Below are positions 7,350 through 30,700 of a DNA stretch of 64,000 bases, one piece after another. The position numbers and the translations under genes are program-made. Position 1 is the first letter of the stretch, and each line of letters begins with the position of its first letter. The DNA is taken from NCBI GenBank assembly GCA_900315455.1, contig OMZE01000016.1, positions 1-64,000 on the forward strand, read 5' to 3'. Source of the DNA: an uncultured Prevotellaceae bacterium (GTDB taxonomy: Bacteria > Bacteroidota > Bacteroidia > Bacteroidales > Bacteroidaceae). The notes beneath the pieces are model-generated. The model had not been told where the DNA came from. It worked only from the letters and a program-made list of their open reading frames with translations, and searched no databases.

Positions 7350-8303
7350 TTATTGGTCATTTGTTTGTTTCATTTCCTCCAATTTCCTACTTGCCTCGGA
7401 GAATCCACTCTTTGCGGCAAGTGTAAACCAATGTTTGGCCAATTTTATGTTTTGATGTGTTCCAATACCCTCGGCATAGCATTTGCCAACCATGAACATG
7501 GCCTTAACGTTATTATTGTCGGCAGCACTTTTATAACAAAGGAAGGCTTGTTTCTCATCTTGGATAACACCTTCACCTTTCAAATAGCAATTACCTAGAT
7601 TTCTCTGTGCTGGTGAATATCCCATATCTGCTGCAATACGAAACCATTGGGCGGCTTTTTGGAGGTTACGTTCGTTACCATGCCCTTCATAATAATAGAT
7701 GGCTATGGCATTAAAGGCATTTGCAGAACCCTTGTCAGCAGCATCAAGGAAATAAGACATGGCTTCTCCATATCTTCCAGCATTGTATAGCAACCATCCT
7801 CGTTCCATGAGTAAAAGCATTTTGAGATTGTGAGGAATGTCTGTAATCGTTATGTCATCTGTTGGAATTTCTTTAATAAAATGCTTTAGTTTCTCGTAGA
7901 AAGCGTCAAAATAAACTTTGTCGTATTTAGGGCCATTCTTATAGCGAATTTCTGCAATGTCTTGTGGCAATCCTTCAGGAAATTCATTGAAACCATCTAG
8001 CATCACGGGTATGATGTTTTTACCCTTGCTCAAAGCCTCTGAAAGTTCCATTCTTAGCCAGTCTTTCTGTCTTTCACGTCCTTCCAATGTGCTTTTGAAT
8101 ACATTTACATCGAGAATGATGATAAAATCCTCACACTCATCAACCCGTTTCAGCAATTCAGTGTTAAAGTCACCATTCATTAGATTGTCCATATCGAAAC
8201 TAACGGAGTAACCGTCTCTCGTCAGTAAATCCTTAATATGTTTAGCAACTTCAAAGCCGCCTTCACGTCGGTAACTGATGAAAATGTCAAATTTGTTTGT
8301 CAT
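7350..8303 (-). CDS. TIR domain protein with Sel1-like repeats
   Basis: The N-terminal TIR domain (about 1-140) opens with FDIFISYRREGG, has SVSFDMDNL and keeps the Glu of WLRMELSEAL (near residue 86) at the position of the NADase catalytic Glu. Residues about 165-310 are Sel1/TPR-like repeats with phrases such as GEAMSYFLDAADKG, AAQWFRIAADMGYSPAQ and AKHWFTLAAKSGFSEA. Bacterial TIR domains cleave NAD+ or make cyclic ADPR signals, often in anti-phage defence; Sel1 repeats are protein-binding scaffolds. No signal peptide, so cytoplasmic. It stands alone downstream of a nitroreductase gene. A role in defence is plausible but unproved; a host-interaction role cannot be excluded. Confidence 0.85.
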   Translation of the reverse strand: MTNKFDIFISYRREGGFEVAKHIKDLLTRDGYSVSFDMDNLMNGDFNTELLKRVDECEDFIIILDVNVFKSTLEGRERQKDWLRMELSEALSKGKNIIPVMLDGFNEFPEGLPQDIAEIRYKNGPKYDKVYFDAFYEKLKHFIKEIPTDDITITDIPHNLKMLLLMERGWLLYNAGRYGEAMSYFLDAADKGSANAFNAIAIYYYEGHGNERNLQKAAQWFRIAADMGYSPAQRNLGNCYLKGEGVIQDEKQAFLCYKSAADNNNVKAMFMVGKCYAEGIGTHQNIKLAKHWFTLAAKSGFSEASRKLEEMKQTNDQ

Positions 8304-13796: not shown

Positions 13797-14816
13797 CTAG
13801 AATGGCACTTCTTCGTTGCTGTCTGTGGTCAGTCCCAATTCGTCTATAATAGTTTCAACAAATGGATTCCTTTCAATCAACTCTCTCATTTCTTTTTCTT
13901 TGGCGGCCCAGGGAAGTTCCGATGGCATCCAATCATCCCCATGCACTTTATGCAGTGAAAAGTCATCAGGCAGGTTCTCGGCATCCAACTCATCCAGTAT
14001 ATCCTGCTCTTTGTGATGAACTATCTTATACTTTTTGTCCAGATTCTTGCAAACATACATTTTCATGATAATCCTTCGCAGGCTGTCATAATCATCGTTT
14101 GATCGGTTTGACGCATGAAGTTGTTTCCAGTCATCGGAGTGTATAATATCTTTATATACGTTGCGGTTCCACTCTCTTAATTTGGCAATATGTTCGTCGA
14201 GTCCCATCCTTTCCATGTCTTTCATCATGCCATAGACAGGCTTGATATCCAGTGCCTCCAAAACTTCCCCGTGCTCTCTATCGTTTGTTATGGGATATGT
14301 GTATTTGGAGGCACATATTTCATAGAGGTAGGTGAAAATGTCGTCGAGGCATTTGTCGCCATCCATAGGCTTATGCGACATGCCATGAATGATGAATCGG
14401 TCTCTTATTGCCAACTTGCTGTCATCAATGACGAAGTCTTTGTCCGCAGCGAAACGGCGACAGGCATAATAGTAATCCCTCTTGCCTTCAAAAAGATCAA
14501 GATTCGCCATGACATAATCCTTGGGCAGATAGCGAATGACAATCCACCCGCATCTCTGCTCATGGTATTCTTCCCAATTCTCTCGGATTTTGGGTGCGAA
14601 GCAATCATCCCACAATTGCATTAGTTGGGCGTAAATCCATTGCCGGTCTGCTTTTCCGGATGAAAGGAATGCCAGGGCTATCTTCTTCTGTTGCGACCAG
14701 TCCAGATAAGCGAATCGCCTCTGTATTTCCGGGCGTGCGTCTTGCACATGCCCACTCCGTTTATCAACGAACCATTTGATGAGTGTGGCAATAGGTCTGT
14801 TATGGGTTGTTGGCAT
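13797..14816 (-). CDS. Hypothetical protein, 339 residues
   Basis: A soluble, charged, mainly helical protein with a Trp/Arg-rich start (LIKWFVDKRSGHVQDARPEIQ is typical of its first 30 residues) and an acidic C-terminus. No signal peptide, membrane segment or catalytic motif is apparent. It is 69 nt upstream of the zinc-ribbon gene on the same strand. I do not recognise the family. Confidence 0.6.
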   Translation of the reverse strand: MPTTHNRPIATLIKWFVDKRSGHVQDARPEIQRRFAYLDWSQQKKIALAFLSSGKADRQWIYAQLMQLWDDCFAPKIRENWEEYHEQRCGWIVIRYLPKDYVMANLDLFEGKRDYYYACRRFAADKDFVIDDSKLAIRDRFIIHGMSHKPMDGDKCLDDIFTYLYEICASKYTYPITNDREHGEVLEALDIKPVYGMMKDMERMGLDEHIAKLREWNRNVYKDIIHSDDWKQLHASNRSNDDYDSLRRIIMKMYVCKNLDKKYKIVHHKEQDILDELDAENLPDDFSLHKVHGDDWMPSELPWAAKEKEMRELIERNPFVETIIDELGLTTDSNEEVPF

Positions 14817-14846
14817 AGGTACTTTGTTATATTGTTATTCTAAAAT

Positions 14847-14900
14847 GACCATGCAGAACGGCAAGTTGCCTGAGGCATCATTGCCGTTCTGCTCATGGTC
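14847..14900 (-). terminator. Long hairpin downstream of the retropepsin-like gene
   Basis: Two arms of 18 complementary bases with a 2-nt bulge enclose a 16-nt loop. On the minus strand it is followed by a short T-rich run, so it probably terminates the 14963-16429 gene. Confidence 0.6.
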
Positions 14901-14962
14901 CTTCATTAGTATGGAGCAGACATACTCTCTGTTTCTTTCAGCGTGATGGCAATTGTTGAGAC

Positions 14963-16429
14963 TTATTTTTCTTTCGCAAATCTCCTTTTGACAGCATCTA
15001 AATCAGTTGTGCTGACATCAGATGAAGGAATCACAACCTCCTGCTTCCCATAATCAAGCACCCAACCATGTTCGGCCAAGAACTTGGTGCCGATGATGCC
15101 CGAAATGGGGAAGCCCATTTCCTGGGATAACTGTACGAACGCGCCATCCTCTTTGTTCAACAAGAAGTTCATCTCGTACTCCTTTCCACAGAACGTGAAA
15201 CAGCCGCTGATGCAACTCACCACTATTGCGTTGCCGTCCATACCATACACCTTGCGCTCCCCCTCGATGGGCGTAAACAAATCCTCAAGTTGGCGATAGG
15301 CAAAGCCAAATATGCTGTTGTCGTTTGAGCCAGTATCAATCAGCATGACAAGTCCTTCGAAATCACCCTCCTCAATCCGGATAAAAGGCAAGCCCTTCTC
15401 TATGGGGTCGGCGAAGAAAGGTATGCTCCTCTTGCTCTCCTTGTCGGCTGCAGCAGACTGCTCCTTCTCTACACGGGATGGCACACGGGCAATCATCTTC
15501 ACCGGCATGACGGCTTTTCTCTTGTAGATGTATTTCAGGCCGAAGTCGAGCACCCATCCCTCCTTCGCCATAAAAGGAGAGCCGATGATGCCCACGACGG
15601 GAGGCAGTTGTACGCCATTCTTGTCGCACTTTCCTTCCTCGGGCGTAATCATATATTCGGAGGTTACCTTGAAATTGTCTTCGTGGTTCACCACCTCGGT
15701 ATCATTTTCGGTCAGCGTAAGGAGGCTGAACCGCATCTTGGCATCTCTCACCTCCATTTCTCCTCCAATTCCTGAAATCACGTCTGTGGTGTCGAGGACC
15801 TGGCAATCGAAGCCATGGTCTTTTATCGACTGCATGGCAATCATGTTGTCGGTGGCACTTGTGTCGGCCAAAGCCACCAAGTCATTCCCATTCTGCCGGA
15901 TAGCCAATACGGGCAGGCCATACCTCTCTAGCCCAATCTCCATGGGGAAGAAGAAATCGCAAGCCGAAATGGGAAGATTTTCGGGACTGACGTCAGATGT
16001 ATGCAGCGTGTAATCGCTGTAGTCTATCGCCAGACCGTGCTGCTGCATGAAGATATTGCCGAGCACTCCGAAAAGAGGAAGGTCGTCCACCTTTTCAATA
16101 ATATTGATGTCACCTTCCGTGATACCGAACGATTCGTGGAACTGTTCTCCACCCAGAACGAAATGGAATGTGGCAAGATTTGTCGTCACCATCTCGTTTC
16201 CGGTACATTCAACATTCATGGTACCCTCCTCTGGTTGCAATACCAATCCATACTGCTGTGCACGACATCCGAAAAGGATGTTGTGGCAACTGCAAGAGTC
16301 CACCACCATCAAAGCCGTATGCTCCTTAGCATCCTGGTCTACATAATCCACTTTGACGAATGGTGCCAAATCGCCCTTCACTCTCATCATCTGCACTCTG
16401 AAGTCCTTCTTCTTGTTGTTGTTTTTCAT
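14963..16429 (-). CDS. Retropepsin-like aspartic protease-fold protein with three modules
   Basis: Three repeated modules of about 150 residues each have an Asp-containing loop followed by a hydrophobic-Gly strand. The loops read MVVDSCSCHN (near residue 44), LADTSATDN (near 195) and LIDTGSNDN (near 370). Each ends with a G-x-x-G-x-x-F block such as GIIGSPFMAKEGWVLDF and GIIGTKFLAEHGWVLDY. Only the third has the full DTG catalytic triad and the second has DTS. Retropepsins act as dimers of such modules. No signal peptide if the ATG at 16429 is used; the 16489 start lies upstream of the -7 box at 16455-16462 and is rejected. It could be a protease or a non-catalytic binder. Confidence 0.75.
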   Translation of the reverse strand: MKNNNKKKDFRVQMMRVKGDLAPFVKVDYVDQDAKEHTALMVVDSCSCHNILFGCRAQQYGLVLQPEEGTMNVECTGNEMVTTNLATFHFVLGGEQFHESFGITEGDINIIEKVDDLPLFGVLGNIFMQQHGLAIDYSDYTLHTSDVSPENLPISACDFFFPMEIGLERYGLPVLAIRQNGNDLVALADTSATDNMIAMQSIKDHGFDCQVLDTTDVISGIGGEMEVRDAKMRFSLLTLTENDTEVVNHEDNFKVTSEYMITPEEGKCDKNGVQLPPVVGIIGSPFMAKEGWVLDFGLKYIYKRKAVMPVKMIARVPSRVEKEQSAAADKESKRSIPFFADPIEKGLPFIRIEEGDFEGLVMLIDTGSNDNSIFGFAYRQLEDLFTPIEGERKVYGMDGNAIVVSCISGCFTFCGKEYEMNFLLNKEDGAFVQLSQEMGFPISGIIGTKFLAEHGWVLDYGKQEVVIPSSDVSTTDLDAVKRRFAKEK

Positions 16430-16454
16430 ATTCTCCTTTTTTTTGTTTACGGTG

Positions 16455-16462
16455 CAAAGGTA
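16455..16462 (-). promoter_or_regulatory. -7 box of the retropepsin-like gene
   Basis: TACCTTTG on the minus strand, 26 bp upstream of the ATG at 16429. It matches TAnnTTTG and decides the start codon. Confidence 0.6.
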
Positions 16463-16533
16463 AGGGCTGAGTGCGAACTGTATGTTCATCGGGGAGGGCG
16501 CAGAATTTCAAGCTTTTTCACGCCATCTAAGTT

Positions 16534-17358
16534 TTATAGATTGTTCTTTACACTTTCAGCTAATTGTTTCAGTTTAGAAATGATGTCATCAAAAGGCTTC
16601 TTGTTAAACCATACAAGATATTGATATTGTCTAAAATCTTTTGTATTTCTAACCCTCGATTCGTAGATGCTATATGCCAAAGTATTTTCCTTCGTTTTGA
16701 AATAATCAAATGATCCGTCGCTCCTTAAAATAATATTCCAATCAAGAAGCTTCTTTTGATAATCAAAAAAAGAGAATTCCTGCCCAGAAGGACTTCTATG
16801 GCTTTGATAATTTCTCACTTCTCTCACATAGTCAAAAACTTCTTTAACTTTTTTATGATGAAATTCATCACAATATGACCATAGTTTTGTATTAAATGGT
16901 ATTGATGCCAAAGAAAATGTGTTTGAGTTTATTTGAGCATTTGGGAAAAATCTTTTAATATGCGAGATAGCATTTGCAACAGTAGAATCTTTATGATAGT
17001 AGAAATAATTAATAAGCATTTCTGCTTGGAGTTGAGCATATCTGCAAAACTCCTCAAATAGAATTTCGTGGAAACGAGTTCCGTGTCTAAAACGGAGCAT
17101 TTCACGATTATCGGATATTAATTGTGTCCTAACATCAGGCTCTTGTATGAAAGAATAGTCTATCACAGACGGCATAGAATCTGTGTAGTAATCAAGACCC
17201 AAATATTTCTCAATATGAGTTATTCGTTCGTCATAACCATTATGCACAGATGCAGAAACCGTTTTTCCAAACAATCTCTGCATTTCCTGACGGAACTCAG
17301 GGTTTTGCTCTGCCAGTTTTTTTATCTTATGTACTGTACTTATCAATTTTTCATCCAT
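16534..17358 (-). CDS. HEPN-type putative RNase, effector of the retron
   Basis: A 274-residue, mostly helical protein. Residues about 95-190 look like a HEPN bundle: a first long helix with FHEILFEEFCRYAQLQAEMLINYFYYHKD and, in the last helix, VREVRNYQSHRSP carrying RNYQSH at 182-187, which fits the Rx4H RNase motif with the usual Asn after Arg. HEPN proteins are RNases in many toxin-antitoxin, CRISPR and abortive-infection systems. It overlaps the reverse transcriptase by 8 nt and follows it, the standard place for a retron effector. The C-terminal 80 residues are of unknown function. That it is the toxin held in check by RT and msDNA is inference. Confidence 0.72.
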   Translation of the reverse strand: MDEKLISTVHKIKKLAEQNPEFRQEMQRLFGKTVSASVHNGYDERITHIEKYLGLDYYTDSMPSVIDYSFIQEPDVRTQLISDNREMLRFRHGTRFHEILFEEFCRYAQLQAEMLINYFYYHKDSTVANAISHIKRFFPNAQINSNTFSLASIPFNTKLWSYCDEFHHKKVKEVFDYVREVRNYQSHRSPSGQEFSFFDYQKKLLDWNIILRSDGSFDYFKTKENTLAYSIYESRVRNTKDFRQYQYLVWFNKKPFDDIISKLKQLAESVKNNL

Positions 17359-18802
17359 AATCTGAATTAAGCAGTGAATCTAATTCGTAATTAAGTTCAT
17401 CGACATTAACGGTAGACGATTGATAAACCGTCACCTTTTCCCTATAGTGTATCAACCAAAATTGTTCTCCTTTTTGGTTGCGACAATTAGAGATGGCCAA
17501 AATCTCTTTCTTTTGCTCATCCTCATTATTCACCGATTTGTTAAATGTGGCAACTTGTTTACTACCACCAAGCATAAAAATGGCATACCTTTTGTTTTCC
17601 TCCGTGTGTACAATTGTAATAGATGTGCTATTGTCTTTTTCAAAAGACAATACAGGTGTAGTGTCAAGATAAGACACTCCAAACTCGTTCGTCTTTTCGG
17701 TAGATTCTTCTTTATCCACTAAAGACCTGAATGATGAATATAAGCGTTGGTAGACAGAATCTGTCTCGCCTTTAACCATTTTAAGGTACATCAACTTACC
17801 ATCTATAACGTTTCGTAAGTCAGGATTTCCTTTCTTTACGTGTCCTTTTTCGATTTTATATTTTGGCAAGAATTTGGACATGGCAGCGGTAAATCCGTAC
17901 TTTTCCCATATATACAGGATATTCCGGATATCCCGAACATATTTTTGCGAAACATTAAGTTTCTTGCTTACAATAATACCTGTTACCTCTTGACGAGAAC
18001 CGATTTTTTGAAGCCTGGTCTTGTTTTCATTGATTGTAAAACCCTGCCCCGTAATAATACGTTCCAGTTCTTTAAGGAACTTTCCATTCTTTGCATATAC
18101 ATAGTGCATGGAACTGAAAGTGATGTCATCTGCGTAGCGTGTATAGTGAAGCCCAAAACGCTTAGCCAATCCAGCCAATCGACGATCAAGTGTATCGCAA
18201 ATCATATTAGTAATGATTGGCGAGGTTGGGGCACCTTGTGGCAAAAAGTATACATAAGTGTCATTGCCATCCTTGTCTTTTTGCAATTCTCTCATGGAAC
18301 ATAATCCAGCTATGAGACTAGCGATTGGAATCGGGAAATTGAATGGCTTTAATTGCAACCTTTTCCATACACGTGGTTGCTCTATGCTAGGGAAAAAGTC
18401 TTTTAAATCAATATTGAACACGTAGTTTTGCCCCTTGTGAACATTGGCATTATTCACAACAGAACGCCCTTCCGTAAATCCCATCGCATAGTCTGAAGGG
18501 ACATACATAGCACTTAGGATTTCATTTGTTGCTTGGAGCAGCATCATGAAACTCTGATTTCTTGGAGCGGTTATCTGCCGGAATCCACCTGTTTTTTTCT
18601 TTATCTTAAATTGTTGGTATCGATGAAAAGTATTGTTTGGGTTACAATAATAAAGAATATGTTTCATTGTAAAAGGATAAAACTTATCAGCACCAAACCC
18701 CATCTCGCTCAATTCCTCTTTTTTGATAAGGTTGAGCAATTCTAGAAAATCTTCTCTTGAAGACATCTGTGATGCAATTTTGGCTATTTGTGTTTTATCC
18801 AT
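17351..18802 (-). CDS. Retron reverse transcriptase with long C-terminal extension
   Basis: RT palm and fingers span about 35-320: KKTGGFRQITAP, DLKDFFPSI, LPQGAPTSPIITN, then the catalytic YADD at 223-226. Two retron-specific motifs are present: NANVH (NAxxH, region X, 118-122) and VTG in QEVTGIIVSKKL (273-275, region Y). Retron RTs copy part of an upstream structured RNA into msDNA, branched at a guanosine. Classical retron RTs are about 300-350 residues; this one is 483, and residues about 345-483 form an unrecognised extension. The 250-nt RNA just upstream supplies the template. The locus is visibly AT-rich (24 of 60 G+C in the row at 17401, against 35 of 60 in an NRPS row at 28021). Confidence 0.92.
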   Translation of the reverse strand: MDKTQIAKIASQMSSREDFLELLNLIKKEELSEMGFGADKFYPFTMKHILYYCNPNNTFHRYQQFKIKKKTGGFRQITAPRNQSFMMLLQATNEILSAMYVPSDYAMGFTEGRSVVNNANVHKGQNYVFNIDLKDFFPSIEQPRVWKRLQLKPFNFPIPIASLIAGLCSMRELQKDKDGNDTYVYFLPQGAPTSPIITNMICDTLDRRLAGLAKRFGLHYTRYADDITFSSMHYVYAKNGKFLKELERIITGQGFTINENKTRLQKIGSRQEVTGIIVSKKLNVSQKYVRDIRNILYIWEKYGFTAAMSKFLPKYKIEKGHVKKGNPDLRNVIDGKLMYLKMVKGETDSVYQRLYSSFRSLVDKEESTEKTNEFGVSYLDTTPVLSFEKDNSTSITIVHTEENKRYAIFMLGGSKQVATFNKSVNNEDEQKKEILAISNCRNQKGEQFWLIHYREKVTVYQSSTVNVDELNYELDSLLNSDYG

Positions 18803-18822
18803 TTACATCGTTTTTTTAAGCA

Positions 18823-19072
18823 AGCGGTCTTTGAGGTATGGTGCCGGAATTTCTTTTCATTATGTAAAATAAAAATAAAACAGACAACTGAAAACTAGAA
18901 ACGTACAACGTACACTAAAGTGTTTACACGTTAACGAACTAACATTGTTATCTCAATGTCTCCGAAGAGCAAAGAGACATCTTGCGAATATACCCTCCAA
19001 AGAAGGTATGGCTTGCGCCCGCAGGACAAAATCAAAATGCTGTTCCAGCAACCAAACTCATCAAAGACCGCT
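18823..19072 (-). ncRNA. Retron ncRNA (msr-msd) with perfect 12-bp a1/a2 inverted repeat
   Basis: On the minus strand the a1 arm AGCGGTCTTTGA (19072-19061) is exactly complementary to the a2 arm (18834-18823), enclosing 226 nt; a2 ends 20 nt before the RT start. Between them I can fold, in order: a 5-bp hairpin with 3-nt loop (19038-19050), a small GNRA hairpin GGC-GCAA-GCC (19010-19019), an 8-bp hairpin with loop TTTG (18990-19009), a 7-bp stem with 11-nt loop (18956-18980), and a further hairpin (18907-18932). The first three suit an msr, the later two an msd. The -7 box at 19089-19096 puts the 5' end just before a1. The branching G and msd limits cannot be fixed by eye. Confidence 0.85.
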
Positions 19073-19088
19073 ATCTAGTTTACTATTG

Positions 19089-19096
19089 CAAAGATA
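19089..19096 (-). promoter_or_regulatory. -7 promoter box of the retron
   Basis: TATCTTTG on the minus strand, ending 17 bp before a1. No good TTTG is seen at -33. Transcription from here would begin about 10 nt before a1 and cover ncRNA, RT and effector. Confidence 0.65.
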
Positions 19097-19135
19097 CAAA
19101 TTCTCTACGAATTCTTTGTTCGTATTTCCATTTTA

Positions 19136-19924
19136 TTAAATTATGGAGGTAAAATATCCAAAAAAATCTACGCCTGCCTCATTCTGTTTCATAAATCTAT
19201 GAATAGAAAATAAAGTTTCTGACAATTGTTTTAATCTAGAATCATTGATGTTGTCATATTCTTGTGACTTAACCTTGTGAATAAATTTTCGACATAAATT
19301 GAGCATATGGTTCAACAATGTGGTGTCCATTGGTCTTGACATTTCAAATCCTTCTATTAAATCACGGATTTTATTGCCTGCAAACAAACTGATCAAGAAG
19401 GCTCCTTCCCATTTAACCGTTTTTTCTTTCTCAAAATCACCTTTTATTTCTATTTCATTCTTATCAAGCATTTCTTCTAGTTCTTCAATGTACGCAATTG
19501 AATATCTATTATACTCCCCAGATATTGCCTCATTATATGCTGCAATGATTTTGTTAAAAAGAGAATCCCATTGATAGACAGGAACAATAAACGATTTAAC
19601 ACTACAATTATTTAAGATGTATAAATTGGTTGTGCAAAAATCCAAAATCCGAAGGTTGCCCTGTTCCACAATCGCACGTAAATATGCCCAACTACCATAC
19701 CCAAAGTTTGATTGTATTTTTATGGTGATGCCCTTCTCCTCAAGTTCAATTGTATCTGACACATAGCCTTTGTAGCCATGTGGACGATAAAGAAAATCAC
19801 TTGAAGTCTCGTATTCAGTTAACAACTGTTTATACAATCCTTTTTCTTCAGAATAGCATAGACACCATGGCCTCCAGGGTTTATTGTTCTCCCAATAATG
19901 AGTATTATTTCTTTTTTTTCCCAT
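19136..19924 (-). CDS. AT-rich orphan protein upstream of the retron
   Basis: A 262-residue soluble protein starting MGKKRNNTHYWENNKPWRP. I see no signal peptide, membrane span or known motif. The N-terminal half looks mixed alpha/beta (FGYGSWAYLRAIVEQGNLRI) and the C-terminal half helical. It is very AT-rich (17 of 60 G+C in the row at 19441), unlike the core genes, which suggests horizontal origin. The ATG at 19924 is preferred over 19990 because a TATTTTTG box lies at 19954-19961. It may belong to the retron neighbourhood or be an independent defence gene; no function can be given. Confidence 0.6.
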   Translation of the reverse strand: MGKKRNNTHYWENNKPWRPWCLCYSEEKGLYKQLLTEYETSSDFLYRPHGYKGYVSDTIELEEKGITIKIQSNFGYGSWAYLRAIVEQGNLRILDFCTTNLYILNNCSVKSFIVPVYQWDSLFNKIIAAYNEAISGEYNRYSIAYIEELEEMLDKNEIEIKGDFEKEKTVKWEGAFLISLFAGNKIRDLIEGFEMSRPMDTTLLNHMLNLCRKFIHKVKSQEYDNINDSRLKQLSETLFSIHRFMKQNEAGVDFFGYFTSII

Positions 19925-20011
19925 CTTATTGAATATTGGTCTTTCTTTTGATGCAAAAATAGGTATATAAAACGAACTCTTTGTTCGCATAGATGTTTTT
20001 TTATTATCAAA

Positions 20012-22474
20012 CTACGTTTTTTTTAGTGAATATGCCTTCCATTTTTCTCCATCAAATACAACATTAACAACAACTAAGTCGTCATCTTCAACTCCAACCA
20101 ACAAATTGCCAGGAACATAATAATCCTCTACGAAACCGAATATCTGCCCCTTGTTATTGTAGTTCATTCTAATGGGACCTGTTGCCGTCTTGGAAAGTTT
20201 TTTCTCGCAGTCATCTATGATTTTTACCTCAATCATTCTGCGGAATACCCTACCCTCCTTGTTCCTTTTCTGATAATAACGCACCGAAAGATAATCTCCA
20301 ACTTTGGGACGAATCCCAGTCTGGGAGTATTTGATAATGATGTCATCATGAGTTCCGAAAACACAATGAAACAATTCCTTGATTTCGTTTACTCCATCGA
20401 CCACACCTACTTTTTTAGGGAAATGCGCAATAGCACTTGCTTTGTCGACCATGTCACAAAAAAGAGCCCTTGAACAAGCATCACCTGAAGATGGGGCATT
20501 TGATTCAGGAATGGCATAGCATCTGCAAAATGCCCCTTCCCTCAATTTTATTGTCGTGTTTGACAATACCATCTCCTTCCCGTTTTCACTCACGAGATGG
20601 TAGCACTGTCTCTGTTTGTTATGATAGTCGACACAGCACATCACTGGCGACAACAATTGTTGCAGTTGAAGGGCAGACTCTTTGATGAGAACGATTTCTT
20701 TTCTATCATTGTCAGAATGTATTTTCACATCGAAACAACGGCCTATTATATTGTTGTTATCAGTCTTTCCCAATTTCTTGTAATTGATGGAAATGGCCAG
20801 ACCATCGGCGGATACCAATTTTGCCCTTTTCACTTTTTTGTCTTTTGGGGAGTAGACATCGGCAACAAACATCGTGGTCCACTCTATTTCTGAGTATACA
20901 AACTCCTCGGCGGATTCCAAATGGGATTTGTAAAACGAATCATTACTATCAGCTGGGATGGCATCAGTTGGGATTTGAGACAGAATGGCGTAGAATTCGT
21001 CCTTTATTCTCCAACCATTTTGGCGATAGGTTTCTGAATAGGTTAGCAACTCACGTTTTGCTTCACCAAACATTTTGTTTCCTATCAAAATTCTCGCCAG
21101 TTCAAGATGCACCTCTCCTAAATAATCATCATTAGGTTCTGAAATAATTGCTTTGCAATAGGCAGAGATTTTAAGTTCCGTATCGCTTGTTGCCTCAGCC
21201 AATTCTTTCCAGACATAGAACCGGTTGAGAGAAAGCAAGAGTGACCTGTAAATGGATAAAGCCTCCTCATGTCTCCCCATTGCCATCATCAAAATGGCCA
21301 AATCCCTATCCAACTGATCATCATCAAATTCCAGGCATGCCTTTCTCAGAAGTGGCTCAAATCTCTCATCTATCTTACGGAAATGGATGGTTTCGAGTGC
21401 TGAGAAATAATGCTTGACTGCCTTCTCTACCAAAGACGGGTACTCCGTGTCGTCCGTCTTTTCCCTTTGCCAGTCTTCTGGTCGGAAATTGTCAAGTCCC
21501 CAATCTTCAATAACGGATATGGCATTTGCTATGCTTTCATCCGGCAACTTCCATAAGTATAAAGATAGTATCCTGGAATGATATTCATTGCTGATAGACA
21601 GACCTCTTATGGAAGAATTATACTTCTCCACATTGGCAAAAAACGCATTGTCGCCGTCGGATCTGGAACTATTGATAATGAAGAACTGATTTTTGGAATA
21701 AAGAGAGTAGATAAGTTCTTCAGAGATTCGTTCATCTTTTGTAAAAGCAACTTTCGTTTCCTCCAAACCGTATCCCATACGAAAGCACCTCTCTATAATA
21801 CTTTCTACTAAAGGCGAATACTCTTTCTCATTCCATACAGAGGGTTGAAAATCATCATTTGAAAGAGTAGTGACATCCCACAACTCCAAGAAAGGAAGGA
21901 ACTTGAAATCCTCATACTTTTCACTGATGAATGTAGCAATATTCAACATCTGGGAATGGAGCATGGAAGGCCGTTCGTTATGCAATTCCAAATATGTATG
22001 AAGCGCTTTTCTTGCGTCAAGAGATCCACATGACAGATAATTCTTTTTCAGGTATCGATAAATAATCCACCCTATTGTTTCATGAAGATAATCGGACAGG
22101 GGATTCTCACGATGTAACTGGCAGATTTCATTGTAGGCAGTCTCCTCTTGTCCATCTTCCTTTGACTGTTCGCTCAATCTATTCACCTCGTCCCCAAAAG
22201 GTGTCAATTGCCTTTGCAGGGCTGTAACAGCCCTTTGGGCATATCCCCCATTATCATCCATCTCTCCAAAAACATTTTCCAATTGCTGAAACATGTTTAA
22301 GGCATCTTTTCTATTTCCTTGGGATAAATACAGATTGCAGTAATCTCTGAGGACCCAGAACAAGGCGCTATAGGTCCATTCGGACTGCTCTTCATGGAGG
22401 TCTTGTTGGGCAAGGCGTAATGCCTCGTCCAAACGTCCCTCTTTTCTTAAACTGTTGACTTCTCTAAATGACAT
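20012..22474 (-). CDS. Large TPR protein with C-terminal beta domains, partner of the helicase
   Basis: An 820-residue protein. The first 500 residues are helical repeats, with TPR-like pieces such as LDEALRLAQQDLHEEQSEWTYSALFWVL, GRHEEALSIYRSLLLSLNRFYVWKELAEA and LGEVHLELARILIGNKMFGEAKREL. From about 530 the sequence turns beta-rich and could hold several OB or cold-shock-like folds (GLAISINYKKLGKTDNNNIIGRCF, GQIFGFVEDYYVPGNLL), which would fit nucleic-acid binding. It starts inside the helicase gene (11-nt overlap) and must be cotranslated with it. No catalytic motif is visible. Likely a substrate-recognition or scaffold partner of the helicase. Confidence 0.72.
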   Translation of the reverse strand: MSFREVNSLRKEGRLDEALRLAQQDLHEEQSEWTYSALFWVLRDYCNLYLSQGNRKDALNMFQQLENVFGEMDDNGGYAQRAVTALQRQLTPFGDEVNRLSEQSKEDGQEETAYNEICQLHRENPLSDYLHETIGWIIYRYLKKNYLSCGSLDARKALHTYLELHNERPSMLHSQMLNIATFISEKYEDFKFLPFLELWDVTTLSNDDFQPSVWNEKEYSPLVESIIERCFRMGYGLEETKVAFTKDERISEELIYSLYSKNQFFIINSSRSDGDNAFFANVEKYNSSIRGLSISNEYHSRILSLYLWKLPDESIANAISVIEDWGLDNFRPEDWQREKTDDTEYPSLVEKAVKHYFSALETIHFRKIDERFEPLLRKACLEFDDDQLDRDLAILMMAMGRHEEALSIYRSLLLSLNRFYVWKELAEATSDTELKISAYCKAIISEPNDDYLGEVHLELARILIGNKMFGEAKRELLTYSETYRQNGWRIKDEFYAILSQIPTDAIPADSNDSFYKSHLESAEEFVYSEIEWTTMFVADVYSPKDKKVKRAKLVSADGLAISINYKKLGKTDNNNIIGRCFDVKIHSDNDRKEIVLIKESALQLQQLLSPVMCCVDYHNKQRQCYHLVSENGKEMVLSNTTIKLREGAFCRCYAIPESNAPSSGDACSRALFCDMVDKASAIAHFPKKVGVVDGVNEIKELFHCVFGTHDDIIIKYSQTGIRPKVGDYLSVRYYQKRNKEGRVFRRMIEVKIIDDCEKKLSKTATGPIRMNYNNKGQIFGFVEDYYVPGNLLVGVEDDDLVVVNVVFDGEKWKAYSLKKT

Positions 22475-24509
22475 CCTTCAGAATATTAATAAGATGAACA
22501 AGTTTGGCATCATCATTGCCCAATTCAGACTTAGGCATAGCAGTAGACAGCATCTTACCTTTAACATAAAACTGGATGACAGCGAATCTTGCATCCGTTA
22601 CCAAATAATAATTTACATAATATTTGTCAATTTCCTCCACGACATTGACAATAGACACATCAGCATCCACAGATGCAGTATATACTTTCTGGAATAGTTC
22701 TCTCATCAGGTCACTGGATGGGGTATAGTTAAGTTGTGGCAACTCAAAACATGAATTGTTGATGATTTCACACAACATATCTTTGGGAGAGCCATCATTG
22801 CTAACGGGAAGCATTCTAAAAAAGCCACTCCCATCATACCACAAGTCGATCTTAATCATTTCCCCTTCTGTTGACTTGAAATGGTATTTTTCCTGATAAT
22901 TGCATGACTGTATGCTGTCGATAGAGTAAGACGTTTGTTTGAGACTCTCAATGATTCCAAGACATTTATGCTTGACGGGGAAGGGGACGGAATCGCCATG
23001 GAAGGGTGTGTCAATATCGTAAGATGGCCAAAAATCCTTTGGCGCCTTGGAAATCTTGGCGATTTGTGAAAAAACCAGTTTGCTGAATGCAGTAATGTTG
23101 GGAGCATTAATGATATACAGTTTCTGTTTAGCACGCGTAGTGGCCGTATAGCACCATCTCAGATGAGCATCTGCCAGCCCACATCGACCGGAATAATCAA
23201 CAAAGACTGTATTCCATTCTCCACCCTGGGATTTATGACAGGTTATCGCATAGCCATATTTTACCCTTAAGGCATTGAAATAGGGGTCGTTGATAAATGC
23301 CTTCTTGAATTCAGGTGTGCCTTCTTTCAATCCTTTGTGCCGGATAATGAAATCGATGTACAGAGCCCTCATTTGCCAATTTGACAATTCCGGTCTGTCT
23401 GATTCAAGGAAATCTTCTAAAATCTTACATGAAACCAACTCATTAGTGTCTGGATACAGCACTTCAATATCTCTGAATGTCAGATTGATGTGGCGTTTTT
23501 CTTTATCTATCGAAACAGGGATGTTTGAATGACACTCTGTATTCCCCACAGAGAACACTTTCACCTGGTCTCCATTATAGATCTCCCGATGATACGTGTT
23601 ATAGTTATTGCTGGATATGATCAAGATATCTCCCACCTGTATGCTTGATGGGTTGGAGAAGATGATTCTTCTGACAGCGTCAACGTAATATTTGCATAAT
23701 TTATTGGAGAAACATACGATTTGACCATTCCCGACTTCTGGAGAAGGATAGAGGTCAGTGTACAATTGAGGTAATAACTCCTCGGATATTGATAAGATAT
23801 CTTGACCATTGGGGCTCATCACAAATGAAGTCCTCTCCTGTTTAGGCTTTGCCAACAAGTCTCTTATCTTGAGCGTTTCTTGAAGAATCTTGCTTTCTGC
23901 TGATTGCCGGATGACATCTGTCAACTCAAATGATGCCACCTTATATCCTAACCCTGCAAAATAAGCCTCATCCAATGCACGGGAATATTGGTCGGTTACC
24001 GGAGGCAACTGGGCAGGATCGCCCACAAAAAGGATTTTCCTTATCCCTTGTGCCTTGGCTGAAGAGAGGAGGTCGGTCAATAACCTGCCAGAACCAAAAA
24101 CAAAAAACTCGCCATACGATTCAACGTCAGATATCATTGAACTTTCGTCTACAATAGCCAAATCTATGCCTGAAGGCTCTTCTAAAATTGGAAAGACAAA
24201 TTGAAAAGACTTCTTTGACTTGTCTTCATCTTCGACCTCAATGCAAGTCAACTGTTTGCTATAAATGCTTCTATGAATAGTAGCCCCAAAACCTACTTTG
24301 TCTCTCAACACTTTAGCAGCCCTACCTGTGGGAGCCATAACCGTGAAATGGACATTTTGCTCTTGCAGATAGTCGACAATGTATTTAATCATCGTTGTCT
24401 TTCCTGTTCCTGCATATCCCTTAAGAATAAAGATATTGCCGTCATTTTTCAGAAATGACTGTATTTCTGAAAAAGCAGATTGTTGTTGTGAAAGTAATGT
24501 AAAACTCAT
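22464..24509 (-). CDS. SF1 DNA helicase, RecD/Pif1-like
   Basis: Motor motifs of an SF1B helicase are clear: Walker A GYAGTGKTT (31-39), motif Ia MAPTGRAAKVL, Walker B IVDESSMI, motif III VGDPAQLPPV, the Q-containing VIRQS, and the late motifs HKSQGGEW and YTATTRAKQKLYI. The order is that of RecD2/TraA-type 5'-3' helicases, without a RecBC context. The last 180 residues are a non-helicase domain of unknown role. It lies between the WYL gene (8 nt apart) and the TPR gene (overlapping). Confidence 0.87.
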   Translation of the reverse strand: MSFTLLSQQQSAFSEIQSFLKNDGNIFILKGYAGTGKTTMIKYIVDYLQEQNVHFTVMAPTGRAAKVLRDKVGFGATIHRSIYSKQLTCIEVEDEDKSKKSFQFVFPILEEPSGIDLAIVDESSMISDVESYGEFFVFGSGRLLTDLLSSAKAQGIRKILFVGDPAQLPPVTDQYSRALDEAYFAGLGYKVASFELTDVIRQSAESKILQETLKIRDLLAKPKQERTSFVMSPNGQDILSISEELLPQLYTDLYPSPEVGNGQIVCFSNKLCKYYVDAVRRIIFSNPSSIQVGDILIISSNNYNTYHREIYNGDQVKVFSVGNTECHSNIPVSIDKEKRHINLTFRDIEVLYPDTNELVSCKILEDFLESDRPELSNWQMRALYIDFIIRHKGLKEGTPEFKKAFINDPYFNALRVKYGYAITCHKSQGGEWNTVFVDYSGRCGLADAHLRWCYTATTRAKQKLYIINAPNITAFSKLVFSQIAKISKAPKDFWPSYDIDTPFHGDSVPFPVKHKCLGIIESLKQTSYSIDSIQSCNYQEKYHFKSTEGEMIKIDLWYDGSGFFRMLPVSNDGSPKDMLCEIINNSCFELPQLNYTPSSDLMRELFQKVYTASVDADVSIVNVVEEIDKYYVNYYLVTDARFAVIQFYVKGKMLSTAMPKSELGNDDAKLVHLINILKDVI

Positions 24510-24517
24510 TTTTTCTC

Positions 24518-25549
24518 TCAGATTAGGGTTTTATAAATAGTCATCATCATCTTGACTCTCAATAGTATGTCCTTTTTTATGTTGTTTGGAGAGACAACAA
24601 TTAGTTCTTTACCAAACGAGCATAGCGTCCGGATCAGTTCATAGTTGGGGATGCAATCGATAGTGAAGAATGCGCCACCTGCGAGATGGGAATATTCATC
24701 ATGCAGTTTTTGTTCCGTTTCACCCTTTTGCGGCGTCTGGCTGCCATGGATGGGTTTTGTGATTACATAATCTTTGGACGTATCACTCACCCAGAAGAGT
24801 ATATGTTCTATGGGGCGGTCTTCGTAGAGGGTCACGCCGACTATGTCATCAAAACGCTCAAAAAGGTCTTCGGGACATTTTGCGTATTTTTTATCGGGAA
24901 GCGGTTCTACCTTGTCAATCCTATCAAGGGCGAAGGTAAGGATTTTACTTTCACCATCCGGAGAACCAAGGAGAAACCAACGGTCGTTATACTGCTTCAG
25001 CAGATAAGGATGGAAATCTATGCTACGGGTGGTAGGATTGGAAAAGGTGTGATAAGAAAGACGAATGACCACCTCGTTGGATATGTTATCAAAGAGAGCG
25101 CCTAACAGATTGGAGTTTAGCAAGTAGGGATTATTGCTGAAACTGATAATCTGCCTTCGTTCTTTGATGTCTAATCCAATCTTGAACTTCTCCAGCCACT
25201 CGAAATGGTCAAGTCCGTTGAACTGACCTATGGTACTTAAAACTTCACGCAACAAATAACGCTCCTCTTTGCTCATCTCCTGCTTGAAGATGGAATACGA
25301 GGAATCCTGATATGCCACACAGTTCTTGCCATTCCATTTAAAGCGTTGGATTGGGGCTTCGAAAGGTCTTTCCTGTAAATACACGATATCTTTTTCAATG
25401 CATCGACGTGTTACTTCACGGAATCCTAATTCCTGAAGTTTCTCGTTGCATTTCTCTGTCAGGTCTTTGATGTCATAGTAATGATGCCTGTCTGACAACA
25501 ACTCATCCAAAAACTTATATCTTATCAGTGCGTTTTTATTACTAGGCAT
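24518..25549 (-). CDS. WYL-domain transcriptional regulator
   Basis: An N-terminal HTH region (about 5-75, NALIRYKFLDELLSDRHHYYDI, then VTRRCIEKDIVYL) precedes a WYL domain with RSIDFHPYLLKQYNDRWFLLGS and a WCX-like C-terminus. Such regulators repress defence systems (BrxR/CapW class) and sense ligands through the WYL fold. The ATG at 25549 is used: the TTG version at 25567 would lie inside the -7 box. Being first in the operon and 8 nt from the helicase, it most likely autoregulates the helicase/TPR pair. Confidence 0.83.
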   Translation of the reverse strand: MPSNKNALIRYKFLDELLSDRHHYYDIKDLTEKCNEKLQELGFREVTRRCIEKDIVYLQERPFEAPIQRFKWNGKNCVAYQDSSYSIFKQEMSKEERYLLREVLSTIGQFNGLDHFEWLEKFKIGLDIKERRQIISFSNNPYLLNSNLLGALFDNISNEVVIRLSYHTFSNPTTRSIDFHPYLLKQYNDRWFLLGSPDGESKILTFALDRIDKVEPLPDKKYAKCPEDLFERFDDIVGVTLYEDRPIEHILFWVSDTSKDYVITKPIHGSQTPQKGETEQKLHDEYSHLAGGAFFTIDCIPNYELIRTLCSFGKELIVVSPNNIKKDILLRVKMMMTIYKTLI

Positions 25550-25564
25550 ATAAGGTATTTTTTG

Positions 25565-25572
25565 CAAAGATA
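25565..25572 (-). promoter_or_regulatory. -7 box of the WYL-helicase-TPR operon
   Basis: TATCTTTG on the minus strand, 15 bp upstream of the ATG at 25549, giving a very short leader. It fixes the start codon choice. Confidence 0.65.
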
Positions 25573-27754: not shown

Positions 27755-30700
27755 TCACTCAAAGAAGCCGAAACCTCCGATGGCAGTGAGCATACGCTCC
27801 ACATAGTCCCATGAGGTGGGCGACCAGGCGAATCCGAGACGGTAAAGCACCTGAGTGGTGTAGTCGTTGTCGCGGGCTACGTCGGAGGTCTTCTGTCCGT
27901 GTGCCATATCCTGGTAGGCGAGCAGTGCCGACATCTGGCGGGCTTTCTGCGGGTCTTCCTTGGCTTTGTCCATCATCTCTGCAAACTCCTCCTGTTCGAC
28001 GAAGCGTATGCCGTCGCCCACGGTGGTCAGTCCGGTCAGCACGTCGCCAAGGAACTGGTTGTGGATGTTGTAGGGATGGAATACCGTGCACTCTTTCGGT
28101 GTGGTGGCCAGCAGGATGATGGCGTAGGCCACCTCGTTGATGGGCGAGAACTCCACCCGCTTGTTGCGCATGCCGTAGGGGCAACAGCCAAGCATGTTGT
28201 AGACCCTGATACGTCCCATGAACGAGTTGGTGGAGAAGTTGGCCTGGAACTCACCGTCGGTAGACCTTGCGGCGAGGTTGCCCACACGCATGATCTTCGC
28301 GTCGAGCCCGTGAAGAGCCACGGCATCGAGAATGAGCCGTTCTGCCATGAACTTCGAGTAGATGTACTTGTTGCCAAGATACTGTCCCATGTAGAACCGC
28401 TGTTCGGTGTACACTTCGTTCTTGCAGGTTTCCACGTTATCACCCACCCACAGGCCACGCGTACTGGCGGTGGAGATGTGTATGAGGCGTGCGCCTGTCT
28501 GTACACAGAATTCCACGCAACGCTGTGCGCCGCCGATGTTCACGTCCTCTATCTCTGTTCCCTCGCTGAAGTGCTTCACGATGGCGGCACAGTTGAACAC
28601 GGTGTCGATGTGCAGGTCGGAGGCGATGGTGGAGAGGTCGTTGGTCACATCGCCAAGGATGACATGCAGACGTGTGCCTTGCAGGTCTTTGAAAGCATTG
28701 GCGAAATAGTAGTAGAGCAGTGTGCGGAGACGGCTCTCTGCCTTCTCCTGACTCTTCCCGCGGACGAGGCAGTAGATGTTGGTAGCATCAGAGTCGATGA
28801 GTCCGCGGAGGATATGTATGCCCAGGTATCCTGTGGCACCCGTGAGGAGCACATTGCCCAAAGCCTTTCTTTCTCCCTTGCGGAAGTTGCCGAGCGTGTT
28901 GCGCTGCAACAGGTTGTTGATGGCGGTGTAGTCGAAGCCGGTCACCTCATCTGTGCTCTCATCGGCACCCTCGCTTGCTGTCTCTCCGATGATGAGGCGT
29001 GCCAGTTGCCGTGGGGTGGGGTTGGCGAAGACGTCGCCGTAGGCCACGTGGAGCCCAGCCTTGTCGGCTTCGATGATGACGCGTGTCACCACGAGTGAGG
29101 TGCCTCCGAGTTCGAAGAAGTTATCGGTAGCCCCCACCTTGTCCATTTGCAGGATGTCGGCAAAGATGTCGCAGAATGTGCGCTCTGTGTCGTTGGCAGG
29201 TGTCTCGTAGGCCGCGCTGATGGCGAGTTGTGGTTCGGGCAAAGCCTTCACGTCGGTCTTCCCGTTGGGTGTCATGGGCATCTCCTTCAACTGCAGGTAG
29301 GCGGTGGGTACCATGTATTGTGTCAGACTCTTGGAGATTTCTGCCTTCAGCGCGTCGGGGGCAATTTCCCGGTTGGCTGTATAATAAGCACAGAGATGCT
29401 CCTTGCCATTGAGTTTGCGGATGAGGATGACCACTTTTTTCATGCCCTCTACCTTAAGCATCACATTCTCTATCTCACCGAGTTCGATGCGCAGTCCGCG
29501 GAGTTTGATCTGATGGTCGGTTCGTCCTAAGATTACTACGTCGCCGTCGGGCAGCCACTTGGCATAGTCGCCCGATTTGTAGATGCGCTCGCCATGATAG
29601 TCCACGAAGCGCTCACGGGTCATCTCTTCGAGATTGTTGTAGCCTCGGGCCACACCGCGACCACCGATATAGAGTTCGCCCACCACACCTACTGGCAGTT
29701 CATTGCCGTCGGCATCTACGATAAACTCTTTCACGTTGAGTTGTGGTTTGCCCACAGTGACGAACTCGGCTTGGGTGAGTTCCTTGTTGTTGGATGCCAC
29801 GGTGATTTCAGTAGGTCCGTAGCAGTTGAAGATACGTGCCTTGGTCACCTTGCGCATCTGGGCAAGCAGTTGGTCGGAGAATTTCTCACCACCGGCACGG
29901 CATATCCGTATGTTGCTGATGGCCTCGCAGAAATCCTCGCTGGTGAGCCAAGTCTGCCAGCGCGACGGAGTACCCGACACCATGTTGATGCGCTGCTCCT
30001 TGATGAGCCGTGCCAGGTCGAGCGGGTTGTTGGCCTGTTCCTCGGTTGCCACGATGAGTGTCTTGCCGTTGAAGTAAGCCATACCGATGTCCTGCAGGGC
30101 GGCATCGAAGGAGATGGTGGTGACACTCAGCACACGGTCGGCATCTGTCAGTACACCATTGGCGAAAACATTGGCGGGATGACCATAGAGATAGTTGCAG
30201 ATGCCTTCATGGCGCAGCATCACACCCTTTGGACGGCCCGTCGAACCGCTGGTGTAAATCAGGTAGGCGAGGTCATCGGGAGTGATTTTTGCTTCGATAT
30301 TATCGCAGCATACTGAACAGGCGAGCAGTTCTTCCACGTCGATGGCCTTGCCGGCTGGCACGGAGTCCATGCGGTCGGCGGTGGTGATGATATACCGTGC
30401 TTCACTGTCCTCAAGAATCAACTTGACTCTGTCTGCAGGGTATTCTGGGTCGCAGGGGATGTAGGCTGCTCCCGACTTCAGCACGCCGAACAGCGAGAGG
30501 ATGAGCCGGCTGGTGCGGGGCAATAGGAGTGCCACGCGGTCGCGCTCCTTCACACCACGTTGGCGCAGTCCGATGGCGATGTGGTCAGTGGCCTCGTCCA
30601 TTTCACGGTAGGTGTATTTCGCGTCAACCGCCACCAGTGCCTCATGTTCGGGCTGTTGCTGGGCGAAATGTCTGATACACTCGTGGAAGAACTTGAAAGG

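Follow-up and report, generated by a model that had tools for sequence, protein, structure and literature searches.

Here we describe a predicted retron located on the (-) strand at 16534..19096 of a 64,000-nt stretch of DNA (the window, that is, the whole stretch analyzed) from an uncultured Prevotellaceae bacterium (GCA_900315455.1, contig OMZE01000016.1, positions 1 to 64,000, forward strand). We consider it likely that this is a tripartite system consisting of a non-coding RNA, a reverse transcriptase (RT) and a HEPN-type effector, in which a short N-terminal tag of the effector and the C-terminal tail of the RT would form the docking site and the rest of the effector would be an exchangeable toxin domain. 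As judged from the genomic loci of its relatives, the effector is repeatedly exchanged within this mainly Bacteroidota clade of RTs, among HEPN classes and a histidine-kinase class. The features reported in a preliminary description of the locus, made from the DNA sequence without database searches, were all found in place. The layout of the retron, in the order of transcription, is as follows.

19089..19096, (-) strand: promoter-like box TATCTTTG, 5' of the retron RNA, of the Bacteroidota -7 type; supported by counts of the TAnnTTTG box in relatives
18823..19072, (-) strand: predicted retron non-coding RNA (msr-msd), 250 nt from outer end to outer end of the inverted repeat; supported by fold, recurrence and covariation
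19061..19072, (-) strand: 5' arm (a1-like) of the terminal inverted repeat; perfect 12-bp pairing and covariation
19045..19049, (-) strand: second helix, 5 bp long and enclosed by the repeat, 5' strand; two-sided changes at 5 of 5 pairs in a 14-sequence alignment
18843..18847, (-) strand: 3' strand of the second 5-bp helix; covariation
18823..18834, (-) strand: 3' arm (a2-like) of the terminal inverted repeat; perfect 12-bp pairing and covariation
17351..18802, (-) strand: retron RT, 483 aa, with NAxxH, YADD and VTG; supported by profiles, fold and tree
17354..17710, (-) strand: C-terminal extension of the RT, about residues 365-483; six strands and a final helix in the model, no Pfam family
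16534..17358, (-) strand: effector gene, 274 aa, predicted HEPN-type RNase; overlaps the RT gene by 8 nt (17351-17358)
17245..17358, (-) strand: N-terminal tag of the effector, residues 1-38, putative docking segment; tracks the RT rather than the HEPN class, and is delimited by breakpoints
16798..16815, (-) strand: RNYQSH, R182-H187, HEPN-type Rx4H motif; R182, N183 and H187 identical in all 24 aligned members

The RT contains the three motifs that had been read from its translation, N118-A-x-x-H122, YADD (223-226) and VTG (273-275), and the combination of NAxxH and VTG defines retron RTs. Among 80 named relatives (loci with L numbers), which are the best 80 of at least 514 confirmed, NAxxH is present in 79 and VTG in 68, some of these proteins being truncated; in Ec67 and Ec86, the segments that contain NAxxH and VTG align at the same places as those of the window RT. 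Of the PADLOC models, those of retron types XI (340 bits) and XII (313 bits) score the window RT highest, followed by I-C (281 bits) and XIII (276 bits), with RT_VIII (PDLC02954) at 104 bits. However, types XI and XII are single-gene fusions of the RT with a protease and a TIR domain, respectively, whereas Pfam detects only RVT_1 in the window RT and assigns its C-terminal extension to no family, so membership in either type was rejected. A TIR retron was also rejected at the NCBIfam cut-off (275 bits against 600), as was the identity of the protein as a group II intron RT (62.6 bits with the NCBIfam model, compared to 340-276 bits with the retron models).

The closest relative of known structure, by both sequence and fold, is Ec67 (Eco2; type I-C, RT-Toprim). 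Sequence searches of the PDB yielded 125.6 bits for Ec67, 105.6 for Ec86 and 61.8 for the RT chain of retron-Kva2 (36ht). In the fold search with the AlphaFold2 model of the window RT (predicted local distance difference test score, pLDDT, 88; 32-row alignment), ranks 1-16 were all occupied by retron RTs, with Eco2 at the top, whereas the first group II intron RT appeared at rank 17 and the first DRT9 protein at rank 24. The effector of Ec67 differs, being a fused Toprim nuclease, and Ec67 itself lies outside the clade of the window RT. This clade, in a tree of 96 RTs that was built by a quick method, with support from the Shimodaira-Hasegawa-like approximate likelihood-ratio test (SH-aLRT) alone, without L053 and L054 and without placing Kva2, comprises the window RT and 79 others (SH-aLRT 99). 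It excludes Ec67, Ec86 and 14 of the 15 other reference RTs, the fifteenth, L133, falling inside; reference RTs were supplied by a search with the type XI model (16 of 296 genomes) and are at most putative protease fusions. By title, 77 of the 80 named loci come from Bacteroidota; the other three (L067, L086 and L087) are metagenome-assembled genomes filed under other phyla.

The 250-nt RNA with a perfect 12-bp inverted repeat that the preliminary description had placed upstream of the RT gene is indeed there, with arms at 19061-19072 and 18823-18834. When the 420 nt preceding the RT gene were dinucleotide-shuffled 1000 times, a perfect repeat of at least 12 bp with a loop of 90-330 nt arose twice. 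For the 308-nt region 18803-19110, the folding z-score is -4.66, none of 100 shuffles being equally stable. The repeat recurs among the relatives: scores of 10 or more were reached by 51 of 80 sequences (the window and 79 of the 80 loci; L027, with 154 nt upstream, was left out), compared to 4.4% of 317 controls in which halves from different loci were paired, the 3' arm being sought, in data and controls alike, solely in the 50 nt that directly precede the first ATG. The sequences of the arms vary between lineages (for example, AGCGGTCTTTGA, GAAGTATTGAGTCAAGG and AAACACCTGCC). In an alignment of 14 sequences, changes on both sides were observed for 9 of 16 pairs, a number reached by 1 of 500 shuffles, and the second helix covaries at all five of its pairs. 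Pairing cells amounted to 92.2%; shuffling lowered this value to 86.0%, and sliding the partner by 1-3 columns lowered it to 35.6-55.3%.

Conserved positions flank the arms as well. Of the 51 strong-repeat sequences, 46 have an [AT]TTGA motif after the first arm and 39 have an AAAGA-like run ahead of the second, compared to 13 and 3, respectively, in single random mid-RNA segments of unstated exact number; these two motifs may represent the priming and start regions of the RNA. In 36 of the 51 sequences, against 2.4 expected from shuffles, the 60 nt 5' of the first arm contain a TAnnTTTG box. The only Rfam match within 14000-22000 was a miRNA family far below its gathering score. Conserved and covarying in the relatives, the upstream RNA is, by comparative sequence criteria, a real retron RNA.

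A different kind of defense RT, akin to the defense-associated RTs (DRTs) and making no multicopy single-stranded DNA (msDNA), could explain the unusual C-terminal extension. This explanation appears highly improbable given that retron RTs top all the profile and fold matches (the DRT2 profile scores 33.6 bits, and DRT9 ranks as given above) and that the terminal repeat and its covariation resemble those of retron RNAs. The motifs, the retron RTs that make up the 16 best fold matches and the recurring, covarying upstream RNA support the identification of the window protein as a retron RT. The retron identity proposed in the preliminary description is borne out by the profile and structure matches together with the conserved RNA, and placement of the RT, the check it had called for, puts the protein inside the retrons, in one supported tree clade.

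The effector gene, which overlaps the RT gene and encodes a helical protein with RNYQSH at 182-187 as originally noted, was further proposed to encode a HEPN RNase. The HEPN superfamily is marked by a conserved Rx4-6H motif at the end of a helix. The window effector possesses such a motif: in its AlphaFold2 model (mean pLDDT 86), which is essentially all helix, R182 lies inside helix 169-186 and H187 just past its end, whereas E113 and N117 are on helix 101-123. Nine positions (M1, I49, L53, M87, E113, N117, R182, N183 and H187) are invariant in all 24 members of effector classes A and B. In one of these relatives, L049, residues 154-198, including the motif, match Pfam DUF4145 with 24.7 bits (cut-off 23.1), and 5 of the 24 members match this family at E <= 0.1. 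PMC10799925 counts DUF4145 among the predicted members of the HEPN superfamily, and PMC13405049 writes the HEPN motif as R-phi-xxx-H. In addition, L129 encodes, on the reverse strand of the locus, a 767-aa RT (NAQNH, YADD, VTG) that falls outside the clade and has a C-terminal HEPN-like domain of the effector type, with RNIPSH, fused in the same protein (hidden Markov model (HMM) domain independent E-value 1.5e-10). Because R182, N183 and H187 are invariant, the model is helical with RNYQSH at a helix end and L049 scores above the DUF4145 cut-off, the effector is probably a HEPN RNase, its fold being supported although not proven.

Several observations weigh against this assignment. The window effector itself reaches 13.2 bits with DUF4145, below the cut-off, and in the fold search the HEPN protein Csm6 appears at E 2.7 with a template modeling (TM) score of 0.33, amid unrelated helical proteins. 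Furthermore, the model has no fold match in the PDB at E <= 0.001; hhalign comparison of the HEPN bodies with a small DUF4145 alignment (7 of 8 loci, L139 having been dropped because the ORF, or open reading frame, picked there was unlike the matched one) gave probabilities of 0.0-0.1; and in the class C relatives, R and H are one residue closer together (RNxNH). The last three observations favor the alternative that RNxxxH occurs by chance in an all-helical effector, or else that the effector has a HEPN fold devoid of RNase activity. We regard this alternative as unlikely, considering the invariance of R, N and H in 24 diverse members and the above-threshold DUF4145 match that spans the motif in L049. 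The HEPN effector claim of the preliminary description stands in part: the conserved residues, the DUF4145 match and the L129 fusion speak for it, and the missing significant PDB match and the sub-threshold score of the window protein speak against it. Searches of PDB sequences with the effector and with the class A/B and C profiles returned chance or designed helical proteins alone, and no PADLOC family was detected in more than 1 of 24 class A/B or 1 of 16 class C effectors, the single weak matches including CARF-HEPN (E 0.0067) and Cas13a (E 0.016). Four class B members (L019, L026, L035 and L040) have a C-terminal extension of about 70 residues past the HEPN body, which by eye is perhaps S1/cold-shock-like.

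The link between effector and RT is tight, consistent with an operon. In 40 of the 42 HEPN genes in the named loci, the start lies between -25 and +11 nt from the RT stop. The effector is encoded in 8 of 301 genomes of the family, the window included, and in all 8 directly 3' of such an RT. The RT itself was detected at E <= 1e-60 in 26 of 399 family genomes, accompanied by a HEPN effector in 14 (window included) and by a kinase in 3; in one more, L107, the locus ends prematurely, and the other 8 (L114-L121), more distant retron-like RTs with 40-43% identity, have no match to the effector models used. The effector was absent from plasmids and phages searched with tblastn, and from viral contigs searched with a single protein; two contigs from the viral collection contain HEPN members, L147 of class C and L148 of class B. 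The RT of L147, which is 62% identical to that of the window, reads in two frames and adjoins a gene that looks relaxase-like by eye.

Next to the RT in the 80 named loci, we identified HEPN effectors of class A (17), B (6) and C (17), another RNxxxH protein (2), a histidine-kinase-like protein (17), a kinase fused to the RT itself, with a small ORF after it (11), or an unassigned neighbor (10), the classes having been set by eye and then backed by profile comparison, Pfam (for the kinases) and HMMs run on other genomes. The RNxNH form is present in 16 of the 17 class C proteins, L091 being short. In hhalign comparisons, the HEPN bodies score 99.8 (A-B), 96.4 (A-C) and 15.6 (B-C) against each other, compared to at most 1.6 against non-HEPN alignments. 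Pfam HisKin-conflict was detected in all 17 kinase proteins encoded in trans and in all 5 fusions scanned, out of 11. To place the five classes (A, B and C, and the kinase either in trans or fused) on the RT tree, at least 25 changes are required; when only HEPN and kinase are distinguished, the number is 8.

The fused RT-kinases are 689-955 aa long (L038, L045, L052, L058, L059, L061, L063, L067, L068, L070 and L077), and each is followed by an ORF of about 190-240 aa that often starts with IEDR or IDD, making these loci possible two-component retrons. No receiver family match was found in the 5 small ORFs scanned; the IEDR/IDD start, assessed by eye, suggests that the small protein may be a response-regulator-like partner.

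What is retained during these exchanges is the RT and, usually, as far as the alignments indicate, a short tag at the start of the toxin. The N-terminal 120-130 residues are common to class A/B and class C effectors (hhalign 99.0, E 8.1e-18). Across 598 pairs of different class drawn from 43 HEPN effectors, identity in the first 38 residues correlates with RT identity (r = 0.44, a value matched in 0 of 2000 within-class permutations), whereas identity of the HEPN body does not (r = -0.03, matched in 1786 of 2000). The clearest case is the pair L014 and L147, which are 86.6% identical in DNA over 4.2 kb comprising the upstream genes, the RNA and the RT; the identity continues through 38 codons of the effector gene and then collapses, with a class B effector on one side and a class C effector on the other. 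More generally, DNA identity ends +65 to +156 nt inside the effector gene in 25 of 40 HEPN/HEPN pairs (8 others end before the effector start, 2 at +8 and +29, and 5 near +1000, a second match beyond the gene), whereas in 17 of 17 HEPN/kinase pairs it ends 102-189 nt before the effector gene, inside the C-terminal part of the RT, and in same-class pairs (n = 33) at a median of +860; the pairs share loci and so are not independent. In the relatives, then, the end of the RT tail is exchanged together with the kinase-type effectors. From these patterns, we infer that the docking interface consists of the RT tail and the effector tag.

Two results argue against a kept, RT-matched tag: over all pairs, tag identity also correlates with HEPN body identity (r = 0.48), and L086, whose RT is 93% identical to that of L095, has a tag only 18% identical, that is, a replaced one; among pairs with close RTs, tag identity ranges from 18 to 66%. 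Retention of the tag could also be mere linkage, with crossovers just inside the effector gene leaving a 5' remnant beside the kept RT and the tag having no role in docking, and L086, where the effector was exchanged without its tag, fits such an account. We consider this a rather unlikely yet serious explanation, as the breakpoints of HEPN/HEPN and HEPN/kinase pairs fall at different places, with the non-independence just mentioned, and as the tag follows RT identity across HEPN classes.

Under the docking interpretation, the RT would copy part of the upstream RNA into msDNA, and the RT, msDNA and RNA would hold the HEPN RNase inactive in a complex, through contacts between the approximately 38 first residues of the effector and the C-terminal tail of the RT, with the HEPN body serving as an exchangeable toxin domain. 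Phage infection would disturb the complex and release active HEPN dimers, which would cut RNA so that the cell stops growing (abortive infection). The holding step and all those after it are proposed by analogy with Kva2 and other retrons.

Retron-Kva2 of Klebsiella variicola, a type IX retron with a HEPN RNase, was published in July 2026; according to that report, the complex sequesters a HEPN dimer which, once triggered, cleaves tRNA (PMC13405049). The two systems are alike in being retron operons of an RT, an RNA and a HEPN effector (predicted here), which raises the possibility that the window encodes an ordinary, if diverged, type IX retron. This seems very improbable to us. Kva2, as described there, comprises a separate winged-helix protein, a HEPN protein of about 19 kDa without the canonical RxxxxH and an RT of about 36 kDa (PMC13405049), whereas the window encodes a 274-aa effector with Rx4H, no recognizable winged-helix gene and a 483-aa RT with a C-terminal extension. 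No winged-helix match to Pfam, PADLOC or NCBIfam was found in the RT, the effector or the neighboring ORFs 19136-19990 and 14963-16489, the former of which matches nothing and might contain a divergent fold. The RT is also more similar to Ec67 than to the Kva2 RT, by the bit scores given above, and searches with the effector sequence or its profile yielded no Kva2 chain at E <= 10. The lineage of the window lacks two features of type IX, a recognizable winged-helix partner and the small, non-canonical HEPN protein, and can be set beside type IX as a HEPN retron lineage.

The suggestion in the preliminary description that a HEPN retron would be new is thus overtaken, HEPN retrons being in print as type IX; what remains of it are the differences in effector size and motif, the lack of a recognizable winged-helix gene and an RT nearer to Ec67. 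The exchange pattern, the kept tag and the kinase members are new here, and among openly licensed PMC papers we found no report of the window lineage, the exchange pattern, tag retention or kinase retrons. A precedent for replacement of an effector while the RT is kept and a terminal segment is shared is retron-Sda1, with HipA/DUF3037 beside a type III-A1 retron (PMC12548924); there, the protein families differ from those described here, and defense is independent of the RT and RNA.

More tentatively, and with somewhat less confidence than an even chance would imply, this retron family can be envisaged as a socket with interchangeable outputs, in which a matched coupling of the RT tail and the tag of about 38 residues allows the same type of RT-RNA sensor to drive any of three main HEPN classes or a histidine kinase. 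The kinase would act in trans or fused, the fused form being followed by the small, possibly response-regulator-like protein, so that the output of some retrons would be a phosphorelay signal rather than direct killing. Many unrelated toxins are held by RT-msDNA complexes, and exchanges that have occurred repeatedly in nature, such as that between L014 and L147, open the putative docking interface to direct testing. With the histidine-kinase members, the outputs of retrons would come to include signaling.

Other genes of the window include additional candidates for defense. A candidate defense pair, PDC-M16A/B, and a WYL regulator adjoin the retron (20012-25567; Pfam, PADLOC); PDC-M16B in this region contains TOTE S1/CSD domains, and PDC-M16A is a RecD-like helicase with a TBP-TOTE domain. 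In L011, a helicase gene that by eye resembles the one in the window is located directly 3' of the retron. Just 5' of the retron RNA, ORF 19136-19990 encodes a 284-aa protein with zero matches in Pfam, PADLOC and NCBIfam. Adjoining the effector gene, ORF 14963-16489 (508 aa) encodes an aspartyl-protease-like protein (Asp_protease_2) with weak PDC-M08B matches. Farther away, a 317-aa protein that combines Sel1 repeats with a TIR domain (7350-8303) is perhaps the product of a further defense gene, and a 2428-aa peptide synthetase (27755-35041) has a carrier domain and a terminal reductase in addition to two stretches each of the condensation and AMP-binding types.

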